Part shown: positions 1,590 through 35,019 of the stretch, piece after piece
Position numbering within the stretch: position 1 is the stretch's first letter
How the letters are laid out: the number at the start of each line of letters is the position of its first letter
IMG/VR virus record: IMGVR_UViG_3300037430_000006
Coordinates: 1 to 41,998 of that record
Direction: 5' to 3' (one strand)
Length of the DNA: 41,998 nucleotides
Origin: a virus
Notes under the pieces: model-generated
What the model was told of the DNA's origin: nothing
What the model saw: the letters and a program-made list of their open reading frames with translations, nothing else
Database searches by the model: none
Program-made: the position numbers and the translations under genes

Positions 1590-1701
1590 CGAGGGGCTAG
1601 GGCCGTACACCCGAAGCTCCGCGACGCCCAAGCAGAAGGCGCCCCTCGAGCAGGTTCCGGGCACTCAAGAGAACTGGGCATCTCGCGAAAGCAGCGGGAT
1701 G
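1590..1701 (+). promoter_or_regulatory. Structured leader RNA element, copy 1
   Basis: Seen directly: outer stem P1 CGAGGGGC (1590-1597) with GCCCCTCG (1641-1648); UA; mini-hairpin P2 GGG (1600-1602)/CCC (1610-1612) followed by GAA; a weak P3 GCC/GGC (1626-1628/1638-1640); a linker with GAACTGGGCATC; and P4 CATCTCGC (1679-1686) with GCGGGATG (1694-1701), eight pairs including one G-U, which buries the ATG of the next gene. Copy 2 (4233-4344) has the same length. P1 and P4 sequences differ between copies but still pair, so the conserved thing is an RNA fold. Confidence 0.75.
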
Positions 1702-2091
1702 GCAGCGCAGGTCATCAATCTTCTTCCGTCGCAGACGGTCTCGGCCTCCGGCGCCGGGGGAGCGATCCCCATCACCACGGCGACGATGCTGTGGGCCTTC
1801 GTCAACAAGACGGCGGCCGTCGCGACGGTCACGGACCTCGACGTCTGGATCGAGGCATCCGTCGACGGCGGCATCAACTGGCACCCGCTCGTCGCCGACG
1901 TCGTCAACGATCGCGGCACGGTCGCTTCCAACAGGATCAACATTCTCGACAGCGACACGTCCACCTCAGCCACGAAGGCGAGCGCGACCTACAAGCAGGT
2001 CCCGGCGCCGCTGATCCGCGCGGCGTGGACGTTCACAGGCAGCGGCGGCTCCCAGTCCGCCACGTTCTCGGTCACGGCCGAAGCCAAGTAG
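1699..2091 (+). CDS. Small putative virion surface protein
   Basis: 130 residues, start ATG at 1699. The start codon lies inside the P4 hairpin of leader copy 1 and has no clear Shine-Dalgarno sequence, so initiation is probably controlled by that structure. The sequence has beta-rich character (many Thr, Ser, Val and Ala; WTFTGSGGSQSATFSVTAEA at the end) and no membrane segment. A beta-sandwich head decoration or fibre-like protein is a reasonable inference, because it shares its leader type with the capsid and tail-tube genes, which need high expression. I cannot assign a family. Confidence 0.6.
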   Translation: MAAQVINLLPSQTVSASGAGGAIPITTATMLWAFVNKTAAVATVTDLDVWIEASVDGGINWHPLVADVVNDRGTVASNRINILDSDTSTSATKASATYKQVPAPLIRAAWTFTGSGGSQSATFSVTAEAK

Positions 2092-2101
2092 GAGCAACGA
2101 C

Positions 2102-2461
2102 ATGCCGCGCGTAGCCATCTTTGAGATAGCCCTCGACACGAGATCGGGGCTGTCCTATCCGCCCGGCGAGAGTGCGGGTGACACGGTCAACAACCAGTAT
2201 TTCGTCTGGGGCGCGAACAAGATCCTGTCCGTCCGCAACCCCACCGGCGGCTCCCTCAACATCACGTTCGTCCCGCAGTCAACGCAGCTCGACGGGTTTA
2301 CGGCGCCCAGCAAAACGGTCGCGGTGCCGGCGAGCTCCCAGATGCTCATCGGGCCGTTCATCTCGGCCTACTCGCACCCCGAGGACGGCGATCGCGTTTA
2401 CGTCAACCCGGCGAGCGCATCGCTCCAGATGACGGTCCTCAACTCATCGGAGTTCAACTGA
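2102..2461 (+). CDS. Putative head surface protein, paralogue A
   Basis: 119 residues, ATG start with GGAGC about 7 bases upstream. It aligns over most of its length with the next gene product (2463-2819): both have DTVN(N/Q)Q near residue 30, a VRN(P/A)-G(G/A) turn with N(I/V)TF, then GPF followed by a beta-rich end. The pair therefore looks like a tandem gene duplication. Predicted all-beta and soluble. Position between the head morphogenesis and protease genes suggests a capsid decoration or stabilising protein, but this is inference. Confidence 0.6.
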   Translation: MPRVAIFEIALDTRSGLSYPPGESAGDTVNNQYFVWGANKILSVRNPTGGSLNITFVPQSTQLDGFTAPSKTVAVPASSQMLIGPFISAYSHPEDGDRVYVNPASASLQMTVLNSSEFN

Positions 2462-2462
2462 T

Positions 2463-2819
2463 ATGGCACGCGGAGTCTTGACGGTCACGCCCGTGTCGAC
2501 CAGCGGGATCCGAACGGGCGCCGGATTCGACGTCGCCGCCGACACGGTGAACCAACAGGAGTTCCCGAACGACGGATCGATGTTCCTGTGTGTCCGCAAT
2601 GCGGACGGCGCGGCCTCTCACAACGTGACGTTCTACGCGCAAGGGACGATCGACGGCGCAGCGATCTCGACGAAGGTGGTCACGATCGCGCTCTCCGGCA
2701 CGAAGTGGTTCGGTCCCTTTAGACCCAGGCTCTACAACCAGGCGAACGGAAACGTTCCCATCGACGGCGACTCGAACCAATTGTTCTTCCAGGTCTTCCG
2801 GGTTCCGCCGGTCGCCTGA
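2463..2819 (+). CDS. Putative head surface protein, paralogue B
   Basis: 118 residues; starts one base after the stop of its paralogue. Shared features are DTVNQQEF, FLCVRNADGAASHNVTF and KWFGPF, matching DTVNNQYF, ILSVRNPTGGSLNITF and MLIGPF in the upstream protein. The N-terminus is beta-rich (GVLTVTPVSTSGI). No enzyme motif. The close spacing implies translation from the same message. A second surface or decoration subunit that diverged after duplication is the simplest reading. Confidence 0.6.
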   Translation: MARGVLTVTPVSTSGIRTGAGFDVAADTVNQQEFPNDGSMFLCVRNADGAASHNVTFYAQGTIDGAAISTKVVTIALSGTKWFGPFRPRLYNQANGNVPIDGDSNQLFFQVFRVPPVA

Positions 2820-2830
2820 GTCGGAGCCCC

Positions 2831-4222
2831 ATGGATAAGCTGAAGCTGTTCGTTCCCATCACCAAGATCGACGAGGAGAAGCGCCTCGTCTACGGCGTCA
2901 TCGCGGAAGAGCGCATCGACAAGTCCGGGGAGATCTTCGACTACCAGAAGTCGAAGCCCCATTTCGAGGGCTGGTCGAAGATGTTCTCAGACGTCACCGG
3001 CGGGAAGTCCGTCGGGAACCTGCGCGTCATGCACACGCCGAAGGTCGCCGGGCACTTCGAGGCGATCGCGTTCAACGACGCCGAGAAGCGCATCGAGGCC
3101 GCCGCGAAGGTCACCGACGACGTCGAATGGAAGAAGGTCCTCGCCGGCGACTACACCGGTTTCTCCATCGGCGGCAGGTACGAGTCCCGGTGGAAGGACG
3201 AGGCCGCCAAGGCCGACCGCTACGAGGCCTCGCCCGCGGAGACCTCGCTCGTCGACAACCCGTGCATGTACGGCGCGACGTTCACCGCGATCAAGTCCGA
3301 CGGCGCAACGGAGCTGCGGAAATTCGTCGGCGGCCCGTTCGTCGAGGCCCTGAACGAGATCGTGGTCGAGATGGCGAAGTCGACGGCTCTATCGCTGACC
3401 GGCCGGACGAAGCGGCTCTCGGAGTTCGTGGAGTCGCTCGGCTTCGACAGCTCGACGCTGACCGTCACGACGGACGCCACCGGAACGATCGTTAAGGTCG
3501 CCTCCACCGCTCCATTGCCCGCGATTCCCGTGGCCCCCGTCCAGAAGGACGCCGAGGCCGCGATCGGCAACGCGAACGACGCGATCGCATCGCTGAAGGC
3601 CCTGGCCGTCGAGCTGCTCACCATGCCAGGCGAGCCCGACACGTGGACCCTGGGCGATGTCCTGAGCGCGATCCGATGCGCCATCTCCGGGAAGATCACC
3701 GCGGAGAACGCCGCGGAGGCTGTCGCAGCCGGAGCCGGGCCGGACAATCCGGTCGCGGTGGCCGCTGCCGCGACGCCAGCCGATCTCACGAAGAAGAAGG
3801 AAGACCCGACGCCGAAGGACGCGCCCGCTCCCGCCGCTGTGCCGCCAGCTCAGGGATCGGAGAGCGTCGAGGCCGTCGTCAAGGCTCAGCTCGCACCGGT
3901 GCTCCTGAAGCTCGAGGCGATGCCCGCAGCGGTCGTCAAAGCGGACCTTGAAAAGTTCGCGACGGCCGAAGGGCTATCGAAGCTCGTCAGCGAAGTCGTG
4001 GAGCTCCGGAAGATCGTCGAGAAGATCCCAGCGCCGCCGGCGGGCTCGCCCGTCCTCAAGACGCTCGGGACGGTTGGGGGGCAACCCGCAGCCGGCAGCG
4101 CCGCGTCGATCGCGGTGCTCGACAAGCTGCTCTCGGATCTGTCCGGGAGCGGTCAGCTGACACCCGCGATCGAGCGGGAGATCTGCCTGAGCAAAGCGAG
4201 CCTGAGCCTGCTCGGTCAGTAA
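2831..4222 (+). CDS. Prohead protease (XkdF-like) fused to a scaffold-like region
   Basis: 463 residues, ATG start with GGAG about 5 bases upstream. Residues 1-150 resemble the XkdF-type phage serine protease: VYGVIAEERIDKSGEIFDY, a candidate catalytic His68 in MHTPKVAG, and a candidate catalytic Ser112 in GFSIGG, ending with SLVDNPC. The rest is Ala/Pro/Lys-rich and helical with low-complexity segments (about 320-345) and ends in a helical tail, as expected of an internal scaffold. Protease-scaffold fusions are known in HK97-like phages. It lies directly before the major capsid gene, and no separate scaffold gene is visible. Confidence 0.8.
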   Translation: MDKLKLFVPITKIDEEKRLVYGVIAEERIDKSGEIFDYQKSKPHFEGWSKMFSDVTGGKSVGNLRVMHTPKVAGHFEAIAFNDAEKRIEAAAKVTDDVEWKKVLAGDYTGFSIGGRYESRWKDEAAKADRYEASPAETSLVDNPCMYGATFTAIKSDGATELRKFVGGPFVEALNEIVVEMAKSTALSLTGRTKRLSEFVESLGFDSSTLTVTTDATGTIVKVASTAPLPAIPVAPVQKDAEAAIGNANDAIASLKALAVELLTMPGEPDTWTLGDVLSAIRCAISGKITAENAAEAVAAGAGPDNPVAVAAAATPADLTKKKEDPTPKDAPAPAAVPPAQGSESVEAVVKAQLAPVLLKLEAMPAAVVKADLEKFATAEGLSKLVSEVVELRKIVEKIPAPPAGSPVLKTLGTVGGQPAAGSAASIAVLDKLLSDLSGSGQLTPAIEREICLSKASLSLLGQ

Positions 4223-4232
4223 CGAAACGGAA

Positions 4233-4344
4233 TTGCGGGGCTAGGGCCGTACACCCGAACCCCCGGTGCCCAGCCGGGACCGCCCCGCAACCCTACATCA
4301 CCTGGGCATGAGGGAACTGGGCATCCCGACGGACAGTCGGAATG
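4233..4344 (+). promoter_or_regulatory. Structured leader RNA element, copy 2 (major capsid leader)
   Basis: P1 is TTGCGGGGC (4233-4241) with GCCCCGCAA (4282-4290), nine Watson-Crick pairs. Inside are UA, P2 GGG (4244-4246)/CCC (4254-4256) plus GAA, and P3 CCCGG (4262-4266)/CCGGG (4274-4278). The linker repeats CTGGGCAT twice. P4 pairs CAT (4322-4324) with the capsid ATG (4342-4344) and CCGAC (4326-4330) with GTCGG (4336-4340), leaving one C-A mismatch. The distance from P1 to the start codon, 109 bases, is the same as in copy 1. No Shine-Dalgarno sequence is exposed. Confidence 0.8.
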
Positions 4345-5862
4345 CTGAATCTCCAGAAAATCACCGAAGACACCGCGGCGATGATCCTCGCCGGGACCAA
4401 GGACGGGTCGCTGCGCAAGGGCATCGACCTGACGACCGGCCTCGTCGGCGTCAACCTCCAGGCCCCGTCGAAGCAGCTCGTCGCCCTCCAGTCGCCCTTC
4501 CAACAGGCGATCAAGCGCATCGTGAAGCCGGGCGCCAACTCGGACACGTGGCGCACGATCACGGCACTCGGCTCGCCGATGCTGTTCCGCGGGGAGCGGC
4601 TCGCCGGATACAAGTTCTCGACGACCCTGGTCAACACGACCGCCACGTTCCGCGTGGCCGCGCTCGGCGGGGAAGTCACCCTCGAAGCGCAGGCGGCCTC
4701 GCAAGGGTTCGACCCCGCGCTCGCGAAGGAAACCTCGAACTGCCTGCTCAACTCCATGAAGCTCGAGGGGCAGGCCTTCCTGGGCGCATGCGCCACCGCG
4801 CTCGGGACCCCGACCGGCGTCGCCGTGGCCGGAGTGACCACGACACCCGCCGGAACTATCGCCAGCAACACCTACTACGTCCGCATCATCGCCATGACGA
4901 TGATGGCGGCGAATCGCGTCGGCCTCGACGTCGTCGGTGGCTACGGCGCCCTCACCGCCGCGAATGCGCATCTGGCCGGCCGGTCGGTCACGGTCGTCAA
5001 TCCGGCGACGGACAACGCCGGCGCAGCGATCACGACCGGCTGCGGACTCTCCGCGCTCTCGACGGAAGTCAACAGCGGAGCCCTCACCGGCCCCACCTCG
5101 ATCAAGATCACCTGGAACGCGGTCCCGGGCGCCGTCGCCTACGCCGTGTTCGTTGGAGTCGCCACCGGCGCCGCCAACCTCCGGTGCGAGTGCATCGTAA
5201 CCCAGACGTCCGTGACGCTGACCTCGGTCGTCGGGACGGGACTCGCCGCGAGCAACGCGACGCTCCCCGGAACCGACCAGACGGCCGACGCCAACTCGTA
5301 CGACGGGATCATCCCGCAGCTGATCGCCTCCGGATCCGGCGCTTACCTCAAGAACCTCGCCGGCACGCTCACGGGTGCCGCGGGTAACGGCGAAATCGTC
5401 GAGATCCAGGACGCCTTCGCGGCGCTCTTCCAGAGCGGCAAGATCGGGAAGTTCCGGGTGCTCGTCTCGGGTGTCGACGCGCGAACGCTCACGAAGCTCG
5501 GCGTGATCAGCAACTCGATGAACATCATCGCCCAGCCCGGGACCGACGGACGTGTCTCGCTCACCGCGGGCGCGCACATCGGCCAGATCATCAACGCGAC
5601 GACCGGCGATGTGTGCGCGGTCGACGTCGATCCGTGGCTGCCGGCCGGGACGATCGTGATCCTCCCGACGGAGGTCCCCTACAACAGCGCGAACATCACC
5701 GATCCGTTCACCTGGGTCGGCAACTACGACTGGATGCGTTGGGATTACAGCCCCAACCGTTCGGACGGCCCGATCTACCCGTTCGAGGTGCGCTGCAACG
5801 GAGCGCTCGAAGGGCAGTTCAACGCGGGCTGCGGACTGATCTACAACATCTTCAAGAGCTGA
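4342..5862 (+). CDS. Major capsid protein, HK97-like with Ig/FN3-type insertion
   Basis: 506 residues. The N-terminal part (1-150) and C-terminal part (320-506) read as one HK97-type capsid chain, with IIPQLIASGSGAYLKNLAG, a long helix (EIVEIQDAFAALFQSGKIGK) and a VLPTEVPY-like P-domain segment. Residues about 155-318 look like an inserted beta-sandwich with the FN3-like SIKITWNAVPGAVAYAVFVG. The insertion would project from the capsid surface. The gene follows the protease-scaffold gene and is followed by a terminator. Its start codon is paired in the leader hairpin. The family assignment rests on context and pattern, not on a search. Confidence 0.8.
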   Translation: MLNLQKITEDTAAMILAGTKDGSLRKGIDLTTGLVGVNLQAPSKQLVALQSPFQQAIKRIVKPGANSDTWRTITALGSPMLFRGERLAGYKFSTTLVNTTATFRVAALGGEVTLEAQAASQGFDPALAKETSNCLLNSMKLEGQAFLGACATALGTPTGVAVAGVTTTPAGTIASNTYYVRIIAMTMMAANRVGLDVVGGYGALTAANAHLAGRSVTVVNPATDNAGAAITTGCGLSALSTEVNSGALTGPTSIKITWNAVPGAVAYAVFVGVATGAANLRCECIVTQTSVTLTSVVGTGLAASNATLPGTDQTADANSYDGIIPQLIASGSGAYLKNLAGTLTGAAGNGEIVEIQDAFAALFQSGKIGKFRVLVSGVDARTLTKLGVISNSMNIIAQPGTDGRVSLTAGAHIGQIINATTGDVCAVDVDPWLPAGTIVILPTEVPYNSANITDPFTWVGNYDWMRWDYSPNRSDGPIYPFEVRCNGALEGQFNAGCGLIYNIFKS

Positions 5863-5869
5863 TCGATCG

Positions 5870-5900
5870 CCGAGGGCGGTCGTCAGCAGGCCGCCCTCGG
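5870..5900 (+). terminator. Terminator-like hairpin after capsid gene
   Basis: CCGAGGGCGG (5870-5879) pairs perfectly with CCGCCCTCGG (5891-5900) around an 11-base loop, seven bases after the capsid stop codon. The 3' side is CCTCTTC rather than a U run, so it may be an attenuating or stabilising hairpin rather than a strong intrinsic terminator. It could keep capsid mRNA abundant relative to the connector genes downstream. Confidence 0.6.
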
Positions 5901-5920
5901 CCTCTTCAGGCGAGGGCATG

Positions 5921-6214
5921 ATGGCAAGAAAGAAAGACACCGAACAGCAGCCCACGGCTGCCGCGGCCGCCGACGCGCAGGCGCAGGCCTCGACCGACAC
6001 CGCATCCGCGACGACGGACGAGAGCGCAGCGATCGCACCGCCCGAGCTCAAGGGCCAGAAGATCGCCCTCCTACGTCATCCGAACGTGACCTCGATCGGC
6101 CTCGAGGTCGGCGACGAGGTCGTGATCTTCCAGCCTCGGGAAGACGGCCTCTTCGAGGTCGAAGCCGAGCAGGTCGGGCTCCTCATGCCGCACGGGTTCG
6201 TCCGAGCCGAGTGA
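5921..6214 (+). CDS. Small putative head-associated protein
   Basis: 97 residues from ATG 5921; the adjacent ATG at 5918 is less likely because GAGGG would then be only one base away. The N-terminal 45 residues are low-complexity (Lys, then Ala/Gln/Thr/Asp), and the C-terminal half is a compact beta-like segment (QKIALLRHPNVTSIGLEVGDEVVIFQ). No recognised family. It sits between the capsid and the first connector gene, where small accessory head proteins are common. Confidence 0.6.
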   Translation: MARKKDTEQQPTAAAAADAQAQASTDTASATTDESAAIAPPELKGQKIALLRHPNVTSIGLEVGDEVVIFQPREDGLFEVEAEQVGLLMPHGFVRAE

Positions 6215-6218
6215 CGAC

Positions 6219-6842
6219 GTGGCCCTCGTCTCGACGGCGGAAGTCCAGGCGTGGGTCGCCGGCGACGGCGCCAGCTTACCCACGATCGACGCGACGCTTC
6301 TGACCGAATGCATCGCGGCCGCCGGCGAGCTGATCGTCGATGAGACCTCCCGCGTCTGGGAGGTCACGACGATCTCCGACGTCCTCGACGGGGATTCCGC
6401 TTCGGGGAAGCACGGCCAGATCTTGTTCTTGCGCCGCTTCCCGGTCACCTATCCGACGGACCCGATCACGATCACGGAGAACGGCGTCGCGCTCACCGTC
6501 GGTGCGGGCTATTCGACCTCCGCGAACGTCATCGTCAAGAACGCCGGCGCCGAGCGCACCTGCCAGCTGATCCGGCAGGGCTCGAACCTCCCCTGGTACG
6601 GGTCGAGCTCGTACGCCCTGTGGTCGCCCGGCTGCCAGAACATCACCGTTTCCTACAAGGCCGGCTATACCACGATCCCCACGCGCATCAAGTCCGTCGC
6701 GAAGGAGCTGGCTTGGCTGATCTACCAGCGCGGCCGCTACACCGGCGTCGAGCTCGTCTCCGCTGAAGGCACCTCTCGCAAGCTGATCAGCTCGCTCTCC
6801 GACTTCTCACAGGCGATCCTCGCCGATGCGCGGCGGTTCTGA
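6219..6842 (+). CDS. Head-tail connector/adaptor protein (gp6-like)
   Basis: 207 residues, GTG start 4 bases after the previous stop. Helical N-terminus (ALVSTAEVQAWV..LLTECIAAAGELIVDETSR), central beta segment with FLRRFPVTYPTDPITITENG, and C-terminal YKAGYTTIPTRIKSVAKELAWLIYQR. This layout, with paired helices at both ends and a GY..IP motif, is typical of adaptor proteins that bind the portal exit in HK97-like phages. Position right after the capsid genes supports it. Confidence 0.65.
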   Translation: MALVSTAEVQAWVAGDGASLPTIDATLLTECIAAAGELIVDETSRVWEVTTISDVLDGDSASGKHGQILFLRRFPVTYPTDPITITENGVALTVGAGYSTSANVIVKNAGAERTCQLIRQGSNLPWYGSSSYALWSPGCQNITVSYKAGYTTIPTRIKSVAKELAWLIYQRGRYTGVELVSAEGTSRKLISSLSDFSQAILADARRF

Positions 6843-6844
6843 CG

Positions 6845-7402
6845 ATGGACCGCGAGCGCACGTTCACCACCGACGAGATGGCGCAGGCGTTCCTGGATTA
6901 CGGGAGCGACATGCTGCGCGCGCTGATGGCCGGAGGGATGGCGGCCATCCTCGCCATCTCGGGCGACACGATCAAGCGCGAGCTCAATTTCCCCAAGAGC
7001 GGCCCGCCGGCCTTCCCGGGCCTGCGCCGCCAGACCGGAACGCTCCAGCGCTCCGTCGCCGCATCGCCGTACGTGGTCGAGAGGTCCGCGACCGAGGCGG
7101 AGGCCGGCTTCGGCACCTCCGTCCCCTACGGCGTCAACTTCGAGCAAGGCTTCGAGGGGACCGTCTCCGTCCGCGCGCACACGCGCACCAGCGACGTCGC
7201 CTTTGGCCGCAAGGTCAAGCCGTACACGGCCTTCGTCCGTGCGCATGACCGCTTCATGGACGTGCGGCCGCGCCGCTACATGGCGCGCACGCTCGCCGCG
7301 GATTCGGAGATGGCCGATCGACTGATCGACCGCTCGCTCTGGATGCTGTTCGCCTCCGGCCGCGCCCCGTCCGTCGAGGAAGTCCGGAAGGGGGCGGCGT
7401 GA
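6845..7402 (+). CDS. Neck/tail-completion protein (HK97 gp10-like)
   Basis: 185 residues, starts 2 bases after the connector gene. Features of the HK97 gp10-like or Mu gpG-like head-tail joining family are a helical start (MAQAFLDYGSDMLRALMAGG), the central LRRQTGTLQRSVAA, then VPYGVNFEQGF and a late MDVRPRRYMARTL motif. Such proteins close the neck between connector and tail. The gene order connector, gp10-like, terminator-like is standard. Confidence 0.65.
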   Translation: MDRERTFTTDEMAQAFLDYGSDMLRALMAGGMAAILAISGDTIKRELNFPKSGPPAFPGLRRQTGTLQRSVAASPYVVERSATEAEAGFGTSVPYGVNFEQGFEGTVSVRAHTRTSDVAFGRKVKPYTAFVRAHDRFMDVRPRRYMARTLAADSEMADRLIDRSLWMLFASGRAPSVEEVRKGAA

Positions 7403-8383
7403 ATGTCGCGGCCGCTGGATCCGGGCTTCGAGGTCAAGGACGAGGACGACTCGCCGTGGAAGTTCGGCGGCAGCGGCAGCCTTACGTCGGCGCCGAATCC
7501 GGTCTTTGCGGGATTGCAGTCGGCGCACCTCGGGGCGCTCAGGAGCATTCAGTTCATCGGGGGCTCCACGGTCGGCCAACAGATCCCGACGACACCGGGC
7601 GAGCTGATCGCGATCGCCGCGTGGCTCTACGCGGACGCCGGCGCCGTCTTCAAGGATCATCCGGTCAGCCTGCGCATCGATCTCAACCCGGGCGACGGCT
7701 CGAACCTCACTCTCAAGGCCACCGTGAAGCCCTCCCAGGTCGGCGGGCTGCTCTGGGTCCCGCACATCTACGCCGGGTTCACGGCCACGGGCACGCAGAC
7801 CTATCTCCAGTGGCAGACCGACGCGCCGATCACGCTGGGGTCGGCGTCGTGGTTCCTGGACGAGATCCGCGTCGTGGGGGACGACGACGTGGCTAAGCGC
7901 TCCCGCTGGCTCGCGCATCAGCGCCTCGTCTCCGTCTTGAAGGGGATCAACGGCGCCGCCGGTGGATACCACACCGACCTGCAGAACCGCGTCTTCACGA
8001 AGTACGTCAACCCGGTCGGCGCGACGCACCCGGCGCTCCCGTACCTGTGCGTCCCGCTCGTCAACACCGCGCTGCGGATCGAGCACACCTCGGAGACGTG
8101 GTTCCGGATGTACTGGACCGTCCCCGTGCAGATGTTCGTCGCGGAGACGAACCCGGGCGCGTACGAGACCGACGCCGTGCAGCGGATGCTGCACCTGACC
8201 GAGGACATCTACCGCGCGCTGATCCAGGACCCCACGCTCAATCACACCGTCGCCGAGATGACCTTCGGTTCCGGTGGCATCGAGCAGGGCGGGATCGCCG
8301 CATTCGACGGGCTGCCGTACGGCGGCTCCGTCGTCCCCATCGAGCTTTCACAAGTTTTCGGCCTCGACGTGCTCGGGCCGTGA
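7403..8383 (+). CDS. Tail terminator-like protein with N-terminal carbohydrate-binding-like domain
   Basis: 326 residues, ATG immediately after the previous TGA. Two parts are visible. Residues about 5-155 resemble a carbohydrate-binding jelly roll (DPGFEVKDED..WKFGG, FIGGSTVGQQIPTTPGE, then a WFLDEIRVV end), a pattern normally met in CBM4/9-like modules. Residues about 165-326 have the size and position of a tail terminator (RLVSVLKGING, then YWTVPVQMFV and a long helix ETDAVQRMLHLTEDIYRAL). The fusion would place a sugar-binding module at the head-tail joint. The function is inferred. Confidence 0.55.
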   Translation: MSRPLDPGFEVKDEDDSPWKFGGSGSLTSAPNPVFAGLQSAHLGALRSIQFIGGSTVGQQIPTTPGELIAIAAWLYADAGAVFKDHPVSLRIDLNPGDGSNLTLKATVKPSQVGGLLWVPHIYAGFTATGTQTYLQWQTDAPITLGSASWFLDEIRVVGDDDVAKRSRWLAHQRLVSVLKGINGAAGGYHTDLQNRVFTKYVNPVGATHPALPYLCVPLVNTALRIEHTSETWFRMYWTVPVQMFVAETNPGAYETDAVQRMLHLTEDIYRALIQDPTLNHTVAEMTFGSGGIEQGGIAAFDGLPYGGSVVPIELSQVFGLDVLGP

Positions 8384-8393
8384 GGAGACAACC

Positions 8394-9395
8394 GTGGCGA
8401 AGATCCTGACGTTCGACGGCCTAGCCGACAACGAACACACCTTTTTCACCGACCTCGACACCGGGGCGATGGTTCAAGTCGCACCCGGCGCGATCGTGCC
8501 GGTGCGGAAGGTCGACGATTACCAGCAGTACATCGACCGCGGTATGGCCACGCTCTCCGGCGAGGAAGACGGCGGCGATGGTCAGCTCGACAAGATCGCG
8601 GACGGCCTGCGCGCCATCCTCGCCGAAGTCGCGCCGCTCGACGGCGACCAGGCGTTCTGGACGCTCGACGAGATGCTCGAGCAGATCGCCTCCATCCAGG
8701 AGGCCGACACCACCGCGAAAGAGGTCTGGGCGGACAACGCCCTGAATCCGATGGTGACGTCGGTCACCCCGGCCGACCGCACAGACAACGTGCCGGCGGG
8801 CGGCCCGTTCCGCGTCGATCTCAACGTCCCGATCTACGAATCGACGCTCACCGCAACCAACTGCTACTCCCTTCTCGACGAGAGCGGGAACGCGTCCGAT
8901 CGCACCGTCGAGTCGGTCGAGGGCGACGAGGACCTGAAGGGCGCAAGCCTCACGCTCGACGACGATCTCACCCCCGGGCTCGTCTACCGCCTTCGCGTCG
9001 CAGGCCTCAACGCCGAAACCGGCCGGGCGCCGATGTTGGAGCCGTTCGTCCAGGAGATCGGCTTCCGGGCCGATACGCGGCCGGCGGTCAGCTCGACGAG
9101 CCCGGCCTCAGGCGCCGACAACGTCGCGATCGACGTGGCCGTCACGGTGAACTTCGACAAGTCGATGAGCACCGTGTCCGCCACGCTCTACGACGTCACG
9201 GCGGAGTCGTCGGCGTCGCTCTCGCTGTCTCCCACGGATGGGGACGCGCGTGACTCCTGGGCGAGCGAAGCCCTCTCTCTGATCGACGGCCATCACTACA
9301 AGATCCGCGTCGCGGCGACCGGCACGGTGTCCAGCAATGAGTACGCGCTCGCCGAAGACTTCGAGCAAGAAGACGACTTCCACGTCGTCGACTGA
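8394..9395 (+). CDS. Virion protein with two SbsA-type Ig-like domains
   Basis: 333 residues from GTG 8394, chosen because GAGGA lies 5 bases upstream and the preceding gene ends at 8383. An N-terminal beta segment and a helical linker (about 60-110) are followed by two Ig-like repeats. The first begins VTSVTPADRTDNVPAGGPFRV, and the second begins SSTSPASGADNVAIDVAVTV; both follow the 'P..G..NV' start of SbsA-type Ig modules. Such modules decorate phage virions and may bind host surface sugars. A 180-base non-coding stretch follows. Confidence 0.65.
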   Translation: MAKILTFDGLADNEHTFFTDLDTGAMVQVAPGAIVPVRKVDDYQQYIDRGMATLSGEEDGGDGQLDKIADGLRAILAEVAPLDGDQAFWTLDEMLEQIASIQEADTTAKEVWADNALNPMVTSVTPADRTDNVPAGGPFRVDLNVPIYESTLTATNCYSLLDESGNASDRTVESVEGDEDLKGASLTLDDDLTPGLVYRLRVAGLNAETGRAPMLEPFVQEIGFRADTRPAVSSTSPASGADNVAIDVAVTVNFDKSMSTVSATLYDVTAESSASLSLSPTDGDARDSWASEALSLIDGHHYKIRVAATGTVSSNEYALAEDFEQEDDFHVVD

Positions 9396-9478
9396 TCGGA
9401 ACACAACCGGCGAAGGCGTAAGGCGGGCGGCGGCACGCTCGGTTCCAAGCAAGCCGGTACGGAACGGAAACAAGAAGT

Positions 9479-9576
9479 TCAGCGGCTAGGGAGACGTCCC
9501 GAAAAGCGCGGCGCCTCACCGCGCCCGCCGCTGATCACCAACGAGGCATCCGGGGAAGGAGGCTCCTCCGAGATGC
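9479..9576 (+). promoter_or_regulatory. Structured leader RNA element, copy 3 (tail-tube leader)
   Basis: P1 TCAGCGGC (9479-9486) pairs with GCCGCTGA (9527-9534), different in sequence from copies 1 and 2 but fully complementary. UA, P2 GGG (9489-9491)/CCC (9498-9500) and GAA follow as in the other copies. P3 GCGCGG (9506-9511)/CCGCGC (9519-9524) is the strongest of the three. After the linker, GCATC (9546-9550) pairs with GATGC (9572-9576) and encloses a GGAG/CTCC hairpin. The ATG in this stem is one base out of frame with the tube gene, whose in-frame GTG is at 9580. The stretch 9396-9478 before it contains GC-rich repeats but no gene. Confidence 0.75.
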
Positions 9577-9579
9577 GAA

Positions 9580-10125
9580 GTGGCAACCAATTCCGGAAAC
9601 ATCGCGATCGGCAAAGCGACTGTGTCGATCGGCCCCTACGTGACGGCGGGCGGAGCAGGCTCGCTCGTCGACGTCGGGCACACGAAGGGTCCGACGACGC
9701 TCGAAGTCGCGTTCACCGACTACGAGATCATCACGGAGCAATCGTTCGGCGCGATCAAGAAGGTCCCGATCTCCGCCGCGGTGAAGCTCAAGGTCCTCAT
9801 GGACGAAGCCACCATGACGAACGTCATGACGGCGTTCCGTCAGGCGGCCGCCAATCTGTCCGGGACCGCTCCGAACCAGACCGGGCTCGTCGGCAACATC
9901 ACCGAGCTCTACAAGCAGATCCAGATCGTCACGAACGGCACGGGCTCGACCACGACGGCCGTCCGGACGATCACCCTCTGGAAGTGCATCGTCGAAAGCT
10001 GTGCGGCGGTGCAGTTCGGGAAGCAGCCCGAGCAGACGTACGAGGTCACGTTCTCCGTCCTGTACGACGACTCGGTCGCCACCGGCGACAAGTTCTTCAA
10101 GCTCGTTGACTCCGGCGGCTCGTGA
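9580..10125 (+). CDS. Major tail tube protein
   Basis: 181 residues from GTG 9580. Typical tail-tube features are a Gly/Ala/Thr-rich start (GNIAIGKATVSIGPYV), the segment DVGHTKGPTTLEVAF, a helix (DEATMTNVMTAFRQAAANL) and a YEVTFSVLYDDS end strand. It sits directly before the presumed chaperone and the tape measure. The start is uncertain: ATG 9573, paired in the leader stem, would be the expected start by analogy with copies 1 and 2 but is out of frame by one base. Confidence 0.75.
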   Translation: MATNSGNIAIGKATVSIGPYVTAGGAGSLVDVGHTKGPTTLEVAFTDYEIITEQSFGAIKKVPISAAVKLKVLMDEATMTNVMTAFRQAAANLSGTAPNQTGLVGNITELYKQIQIVTNGTGSTTTAVRTITLWKCIVESCAAVQFGKQPEQTYEVTFSVLYDDSVATGDKFFKLVDSGGS

Positions 10126-33086: not shown

Positions 33087-33289
33087 CGACGCAGGACGAA
33101 CGCTGCACGGCGACTTCCAAGACAACCCGGAAGCGCTGCCGGCGCCTCGCACACCCGGGCGAGACCCTTTGCTATCTCCACGGCTGGCGATCCTACCTAG
33201 AGATCAAGCTCGGCAGTCCGAGGCGACCCGTACAGAAGATCCCGCTTGAAGACGAGTGGGCCGAGCTGCAACGAAAGGAAGTGCCATGA
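33083..33289 (+). CDS. Small protein with C-x10-C-x10-C-x2-H zinc motif
   Basis: 68 residues from GTG 33083. Cys8, Cys19, Cys30 and His33 (RCTATSKTTRKRCRRLAHPG, then CYLHG) form a zinc motif often seen at the N-terminus of phage small terminase subunits and related proteins. The same motif occurs in the gene at 37335 and in the small terminase at 39545, so it may be a shared DNA-binding module. It precedes the HerA-like ATPase. Confidence 0.55.
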   Translation: MTTQDERCTATSKTTRKRCRRLAHPGETLCYLHGWRSYLEIKLGSPRRPVQKIPLEDEWAELQRKEVP

Positions 33290-35019
33290 AGCTCCATCTC
33301 GCCCCCGGCCTCACGCTCCCGGCGGCCGTCGTCACCGAGAAACTCGGCTTCCTCGGCCGAACCGGAAGCGGGAAGACGTACGCCGCGCAGCTGCTCGCGG
33401 AGCAGATGCACGCCGCCGGCGCGCAGTTCATCGTGCTCGATCCCGTTGGGGTCTGGTATGGACTTCGTCTCGCGGCCGACGGCAAAGGGAAGGGACTGCC
33501 GATCCCCGTGCTCGGCGGCCTCCGCGGGGACATCCCGATCGAGCCGACGGGAGGCGCGCTGATCGCTGACCTGGTCGTCGATCGCGGAACGTCCGTCATC
33601 CTCGACGTCTCTCAGTTCGAATCCGACGCCCAGAAGGCGCGGTTCGCGCAGGACTTCGCCGATCGATTCTTCTTCCGGAAGAAGGCGGCTCCATCGGCCG
33701 TGCACCTCTTCATCGAAGAGGCCCAGGAGTTCGTCCCGCAAAACCCCCAGCGCGAAGAGACGCGGATGCTCCACGCCTTCACGCGGCTGTTCAAGATCGG
33801 CCGGAACTTCGGCGTCGGCGGATCCCTGATCACGCAACGCCCCCAGGAAGTGAACAAGAAGGTCCTGAACCTGGTCGAGCTGCTCTTCGCCTTCCAGCTC
33901 ACCGGGCCCCAAGAGCGCAAGACGATCGAGGGGTGGATCGCCGACAAGGGGCTCGACGAGGACATCGCCGGCGAGCTCCCTAAGCTCGCGGTCGGACACC
34001 CGCACGTCTGGTCGCCGGCGTGGCTGAAGATCTCCCGCGTCGTCGCGATCGCGAAGAAGTCCACCTACGACGCGTCGAGCACGCCGGTCATGGGCAAGGC
34101 GGCCGTCGCCCGCGAGCTGTCGCCCGTGGATCTGGATGCGCTGCGACGGGAGATGGCGTCCACGATCGAGAAGGCGAAGGCCGACGACCCCCGGGAGCTG
34201 CGGAAGAAGATCGCGCGCCTTGAAGAGGAGCTCCGGGCCCAGCGCGGCAAGATCGAACGCGTTGAGGTCCCTGCGCTCGACGAGAAGCTGGTCGCTCGGT
34301 TCGAAGCGGCCGCGCGCATCCTTCAGAAGCACGGGCTCGAGCTTCACACCGAAGGCGAGGCCTTCGCCAGCACCGCCGAGGAATTGATGATCGAGCTGCG
34401 CCGGACGCAGGCAGCGGCTCGCCAAGATGCAACCCCGAGGACGACCGCGACGCGGCGGGATGGGCCCGCAAGCGCCGCGACCAAACGCGCCAGCCCGGAG
34501 CCCCGCGGGGAAGAACGTAGGCCCGCCGCAGGGAAGCTCGCCCCGCGGGGCTCCGGCTCGAACGGCTCTCTCCCACGGGGCGAGCGCCGGATCCTCGCCG
34601 CGATTGCGCAGCACCAAGAGGGCGTGACGCGCGCTCAGCTGACAATCCTGACCGGCTACAAGCGAAGCTCGAGGGACACCTATCTCCAGAAGCTCCAGGC
34701 CCGCGGGCTGATCGCATGCGGGTCGATCGACATCGTTGTCACCGGGGACGGGATCGTCGCTCTCGGTCCCGACTTCGAAGCGCTCCCGACCGGTGATGCT
34801 CTCCGTAAGCACTGGCTCGACAAGCTGCCGGAAGGGGAGCGCCGCATCCTCTCGATCGTCGCCGACGCGTATCCGAAAGCCGTCTCGCGCGACGTGATCT
34901 CGGCCGAGACTGGCTACAAGCGATCGAGCCGGGATACGTACCTGCAAAAGCTCTCAGCGCGGCGCCTCGTGATCCAGGGGCACGACGGAATCATCGCCGC
35001 GGCGGAGTTGTTCTCGTAA
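33286..35019 (+). CDS. HerA/VirD4-type ATPase with two C-terminal winged helices
   Basis: 577 residues from ATG 33286, ATGA overlap. Walker A GRTGSGKT (24-31), Walker B HLFIEEAQEF with Glu144 and Glu145, and ITQRPQEVNK (182-191) mark a HerA/FtsK-superfamily pump. Residues 285-400 are a charged coiled coil and 400-430 a disordered Arg/Pro linker. Two repeats starting GERRIL at 432 and 517 each carry TGYKRSSRDTYLQKL, a duplicated winged helix. Likely role: DNA translocation or helicase work in phage replication or recombination; no other helicase is seen in the window. Confidence 0.7.
   Translation: MKLHLAPGLTLPAAVVTEKLGFLGRTGSGKTYAAQLLAEQMHAAGAQFIVLDPVGVWYGLRLAADGKGKGLPIPVLGGLRGDIPIEPTGGALIADLVVDRGTSVILDVSQFESDAQKARFAQDFADRFFFRKKAAPSAVHLFIEEAQEFVPQNPQREETRMLHAFTRLFKIGRNFGVGGSLITQRPQEVNKKVLNLVELLFAFQLTGPQERKTIEGWIADKGLDEDIAGELPKLAVGHPHVWSPAWLKISRVVAIAKKSTYDASSTPVMGKAAVARELSPVDLDALRREMASTIEKAKADDPRELRKKIARLEEELRAQRGKIERVEVPALDEKLVARFEAAARILQKHGLELHTEGEAFASTAEELMIELRRTQAAARQDATPRTTATRRDGPASAATKRASPEPRGEERRPAAGKLAPRGSGSNGSLPRGERRILAAIAQHQEGVTRAQLTILTGYKRSSRDTYLQKLQARGLIACGSIDIVVTGDGIVALGPDFEALPTGDALRKHWLDKLPEGERRILSIVADAYPKAVSRDVISAETGYKRSSRDTYLQKLSARRLVIQGHDGIIAAAELFS

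Follow-up and report, generated by a model that had tools for sequence, protein, structure and literature searches.

Three int-alpA-type leader RNAs ahead of genes in one viral genome and a proposed translational switch based on two-site loop pairing

Introduction

Which RNA recurs three times ahead of genes in one viral genome, and what might it do to the genes that follow? The window analyzed here (the whole stretch of 41,998 nucleotides, positions 1 to 41,998 of IMG/VR record IMGVR_UViG_3300037430_000006) had been credited, in a sequence-only reading, with three copies of a structured leader RNA. The sites of these three related leaders were confirmed at 1590-1698, 4233-4340, and 9479-9570, all on the + strand, and stem P1, the UA, the GGG..CCC mini-hairpin (P2), the GAA, and the closing arm P1' were found at the proposed positions with the proposed sequences. 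Close relatives of the downstream proteins were absent or nearly absent among IMG/VR and annotated phages, and homologues were therefore sought through the RNA. The proposal of a shared, covarying, cis-acting leader RNA that precedes genes and has homologues elsewhere is supported by these homologues, by an independent covariance model, and by covariation.

Identification of the RNA family

A cmscan search of the whole window against Rfam returned a single match, copy 3, which matched RF02996 (int-alpA) at 9479-9546 with 54.7 bits, the gathering score being 35.8. Searched alone, copy 2 scored 26.7 bits for RF02996, which is below the cut-off, and copy 1 gave no RF02996 match; across the window and the copies searched alone, int-alpA was the only family above chance in Rfam, and no other riboswitch or ribozyme family was matched. 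The leaders had been taken to belong to no known family, which is wrong because copy 3 lies above the RF02996 cut-off (copies 1 and 2 lie below it). Thirteen of 16 sampled relatives were also above it.

Relatives were gathered from IMG/VR and GTDB genome contigs using short patterns and a P1 filter. The filter was added because the bare pattern GGCTAGGG..CCCGAA, tried and rejected as a search key, was too short and gave many chance matches. An alignment of 70 outside sequences, with no window sequence included, was used for the covariance model R1, which recovered all three copies as its top matches (51.4, 31.5, and 20.9 bits, with E-values of 3e-14, 6e-8, and 1e-4 that are rough for R1). The next match in the window scored 14.4 bits, and the R1 search gave no further convincing copy there. 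As R1 ranks the three copies first without holding any window sequence, they are not chance matches, and the homology of all three to the int-alpA family is supported.

Rfam classes RF02996 as "Gene; sRNA". In the literature searched, the only naming of int-alpA was as a genomic match (PMC12370729), and neither a functional study of int-alpA nor a study naming RF02996 was found.

Fold and loop pairing among relatives

For stems P1-P3 in 45 aligned R1 matches, 95.7% of the cells were paired, and changes on both sides were counted in 163 cells versus 44 after shuffling and 13-48 when the partners were slid; this 45-copy alignment was fitted to the structure, and sliding the partners nonetheless abolished the signal. 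At 50 loci fetched by a pattern holding no P1 information beyond GGC, P1 reached at least 7 bp in 80%, versus 10% when the 5' arm was taken from another locus; thus, P1 is not an artefact of the filter. P3 had been no condition for entry into the first alignment, yet it paired in 88% of the cells, and each of its four pairs showed changes on both sides. The first relatives were retrieved with the motif of the sequence-only reading itself, a selection that accounts in part for the unvarying GGG/CCC of these sequences. The P2 loops (1603-1609, 4247-4253, and 9492-9497 in the window) are rich in palindromic 4-mers (AGCU, GUAC, GAUC, GGCC, ACGU, and UCGA), which were present in 26 of 42 distinct loops versus 11.5 after shuffling, the loops counted not being mutually independent; they suggest that loop-loop dimerisation through P2 is worth a test.

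The sequence-only reading had overlooked the key feature: the loop of P3 (L3) has complements at two places further downstream, and one of the two usually covers the ribosome-binding site. Among approximately 110 relatives, nearly all showed these sites in tandem: site A just 3' of P1 (~4-11 nt past it), and site B usually 10-15 nt beyond A, right before the start codon. Site B lies between complementary arms that make it part of a hairpin loop (the hairpin being P4), and this loop usually contains a Shine-Dalgarno (SD) sequence. The relatives hold 61 different L3 words. When both sites had to be present and their lengths had to add up to at least 9, two-site pairing was found in 82% of 79 copies with distinct P3 regions, versus 18% when each L3 was set against the tail of a different copy (such a tail likewise having a ribosome-binding site) and 10% when it was set against shuffled tails. 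A held-out set was obtained by searching ~710 genomes of three classes with R1, which gave matches in 10 of 240, 18 of 229, and 2 of 245 genomes, each count including a centre genome chosen for carrying a copy. The 30 new copies taken from it showed two-site pairing in 90%, versus 25% for mixed loops and tails; ~10-18% of the relatives are without the pattern at the threshold used. P4 of at least 5 bp was present in 66% of the first set (26% with the 3' flank swapped) and in 56% of the held-out copies (29% with the 3' flank swapped), as in ACGCAC-GGTAGGG-GTGCGT-G-ATG and GCGCAT-GAGG-ATGCGC-GA-ATG. In all 27 of the held-out copies having both sites, B ended 2-11 nt before the first start-like codon.

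Two similar sites could also arise in a passive pseudoknot that stabilises the leader or fixes the translation level without switching, B resembling A as both are SD-like. A and B are similar words, often purine-rich, and a switch would be one without a known trigger. However, B fits its own L3 far better than the L3s of other copies, and the match to its own L3 extends to words that are not SD, such as CTGTG, GGTAAA, and CTGGGCA, and we consider the passive explanation unlikely.

The int-alpA family was reportedly first described by Weinberg et al. (2017, NAR), and the pairing of the loop with site A as a pseudoknot may already have been noted there. The anatomy beyond the known fold, consisting of two-site L3 pairing, P4, and site B at the start codon, is new here.

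Anatomy of the three window copies

Copy 3 has a core at 9479-9534 (P1 9479-9486/9527-9534 and P2 9489-9500) in which the three-way junction with UA and GAAAA linkers is present. Its L3, GCCTC (9513-9517), faces site A, GAGGC (9543-9547), and the P4 hairpin CGGGG-AAGGAGGCTC-CTCCG (9551-9570) carries the SD-like site B, GAGGC, in its loop (9559-9563). The gene that follows (9580-10125, 181 aa, phrog_2175) begins with GTG at 9580, and not with the ATG at 9573 from which a tail protein had been proposed to start. Upstream of copy 3, at 8274-9395, lies a gene for a protein with bacterial Ig-like (Big_5) domains, and a HerA/TrwB-like ATPase with a winged-helix-like end is encoded elsewhere in the window, at 33256-35019.

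In copy 2, the core spans 4233-4290 (P1 4233-4241/4282-4290, P2 4244-4256, and P3), the junction linker being GAACC. L3, TGCCCAG (4267-4273), can form 7 bp with site A, CTGGGCA (4302-4308), and the loop of the P4 hairpin GGGA-ACTGGGCA-TCCC (4312-4327) carries a site B (4317-4323) identical in sequence to site A. A further hairpin, P5 (CCGAC/GTCGG, 4326-4340), lies between site B and the ATG. The downstream gene (4342-5862, 506 aa, phrog_13692 of unknown function) adjoins a head-protease-like gene.

Copy 1 has a core at 1590-1648 with P1 (1590-1597/1641-1648), the UA, P2 (1600-1612), the GAA, and a weak P3, so that P1 and P2 are the only sound stems of its junction. Its L3 word GCCCA (1626-1630) is complementary to site A, GGGC (1659-1662), and the P4 hairpin GAGA-ACTGGGCA-TCTC (1669-1684) carries site B, TGGGC (1675-1679), in its loop. 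P5 (CTCGC/GCGGG, 1682-1698), a pairing read from the sequence, overlaps the 3' arm of P4 and adjoins the start codon of a gene (1699-2091, 130 aa) that has no family match. The poor P3 and the loop-A match of only 4 bp are accompanied by a folding energy no better than that of shuffled sequences (z +0.3), whereas copies 2 and 3 fold better than theirs (z -2.2 and -2.7); copy 1 may be decaying.

Counted from the start of P1, the ATG follows at 109 nt in copy 1 and copy 2 alike, an equality already noted in the sequence-only reading. Their P4 hairpins have the same loop and differ in one stem pair that is altered on both sides (A-U to G-C). The hairpin previously called P4 in these copies corresponds in part to P5, which shares bases with the P4 supported by relatives; it was dropped in favor of the latter. 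Nor does the "linker" GGCATC hold as a single element: in copy 3 it is site A, and in the other two copies it falls within site B, inside the loop of P4. Site B of copies 1 and 2 is not SD-like and ends 18-20 nt before the AUG, with P5 filling the gap. The major capsid and tail tube assignments of the second and third target genes stand as probable, their profile support being weak: the gene after copy 2 probably encodes the major capsid protein and that after copy 3 a tail tube or Ig-domain protein.

Position before genes and range of targets

A reading frame with an ATG started 26-46 nt after P1' in 29 of the 30 held-out copies, whereas only 4.6% of random positions had an ATG frame of 100 or more aa beginning at such a distance. 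The downstream proteins of relatives include HNH, GIY-YIG, and AP2-domain endonuclease-type proteins, Rha, KilA-N, integrases, proteins matching DUF927 of Pfam, helicases/DnaB, Dam, and tail tube proteins, and many are unknown. With targets so diverse (endonucleases, Rha, KilA-N, integrases, helicases, and tail genes), the proposed specificity for highly expressed virion proteins does not hold. Homing-type endonucleases are the commonest recognisable targets (five loci besides the HNH loci), and leader and endonuclease gene may move together as one cassette. Another recurrent target gene, seen at four loci, encodes long proteins (~580-960 aa) with similar N-termini (YCVVGI-like). Five further copies precede tail-type proteins, two by Phage_tail_3 matches and the others as judged by eye; structural targets are thus not unique to the window. 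In annotated phage records, the element often stands before inserted-looking genes, sometimes opposing the direction of the late genes. The carriers are phages and prophages of Pseudomonadota, Desulfobacterota, Planctomycetota, Actinomycetota, Bacillota, and others. A record usually holds one copy, and the three in the window are unusual; the window also stands apart in that one phage has three copies before structural genes and in that site B is set back from the start codon.

The Rfam class would suit a trans-acting small RNA that is encoded between the integrase and alpA genes and acts elsewhere, and the founder order is present in E. coli, where an integrase gene, the RNA, a 317-aa gene, and a gene for an HTH regulator follow each other. 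However, the annotated start of this 317-aa gene lies directly behind site B, and in nearly every copy site B and P4 are found where the next gene has its ribosome-binding site, with the downstream genes varying while the spacing stays constant. Moreover, the integrase-alpA setting, which gave the family its name and is not a structural criterion, fits the E. coli copies but is absent from most relatives and from the window copies, which lie in a structural region. We therefore regard action in trans as improbable.

A role in transcription, in which P1 and the U-rich stretch after it would terminate transcription or prevent its termination, draws on the T-run that directly follows P1' in 26-31% of the copies. 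Approximately 70% of the copies lack such a run, as do all three in the window, and an attenuator or antiterminator needs neither a two-site complementarity reaching the SD nor a constant distance to the start codon; with the T-run confined to a minority, the terminator role was set aside as quite improbable. A self-cleaving ribozyme or processing site releasing the mRNA, an option raised in the sequence-only reading and suggested by the compact junction with a pseudoknot and the conserved unpaired UA and GAAAA, is very improbable, as no Rfam ribozyme family was matched and two competing loop partners would be left unexplained.

Proposed switch mechanism

We favor a translational switch because one loop has two partners that cannot be paired together and the second is usually the ribosome-binding site. 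Sequence comparison shows the fold, the complementarity between L3 and both sites, the P4 hairpin, and an unvarying placement ahead of start codons. With a probability of roughly 0.7, each copy would be a cis-acting int-alpA 5' leader that switches translation of the next gene by mutually exclusive pairings. The three-way junction (P1, P2, and P3, with the UA and GAAAA linkers) would present the P3 loop as an anti-SD strand. Two partners would be open to this strand: site A, with which it would form a pseudoknot, and site B within the loop of P4, which is the SD in most relatives. The two pairings would exclude each other and, we infer, compete in vivo. Pairing with A would leave the ribosome site free (on), and pairing with B would hide it (off), and presumably either the binding of a small molecule or protein or the order of folding sets the balance. 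The conserved junction (UA, GAAAA, and GGC/GCC) offers a possible binding place for a ligand or protein.

An alternative pairing in the leader that includes the SD, as in translational riboswitches, is indicated for the family by comparison, site B of copies 1 and 2 not being an SD. As this site is a poor SD 18-20 nt from the AUG and behind P5, we conjecture that mutual exclusion of P4 and P5 could replace direct masking of the SD in these two copies.

An orphan RNA filed as an sRNA thus appears to be a generic translational switch of phages and prophages in several phyla. Under the two-site rule, a structure that had lacked an explanation yields a mechanism open to simple tests with compensatory mutants, and the question arises of what signal is shared by so many phages and flips the int-alpA switch. 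If it works in standard hosts, it would provide a compact natural translation switch. More tentatively, int-alpA might rank among the most widespread regulatory leaders of phages and form a new class of ligand- or protein-sensing switch, in which a decoy competes with the ribosome site to time unrelated genes across many phyla.

Comparison with known systems

The window copies resemble RF02996 int-alpA in the three-way junction, the UA and GAAAA linkers, the P3 loop, and the tail. The Rfam model (71 nt) ends at site A and is without P4, site B, the start codon, and a role as a cis-leader, and the window copies differ in preceding structural genes, with three copies in a single genome. In translational riboswitches of the preQ1 and SAM-II classes, the SD is hidden by a pseudoknot, and in the switch proposed here a loop pairing would likewise hide an SD a few bases upstream of the start codon. 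Unlike these riboswitches, to which no sequence match was found in Rfam, int-alpA has a loop with two alternative partners and targets without a metabolic theme. The leader hairpins of T4 homing endonucleases and the pseudoknot leaders of the rpsO and gene 32 type are gene-specific. Like the switch proposed here, they act through RNA structure on initiation at a phage or ribosomal gene, and endonucleases, as in T4, are also common targets of int-alpA; in contrast to all of them, int-alpA is one family found across very many phages before unrelated genes.
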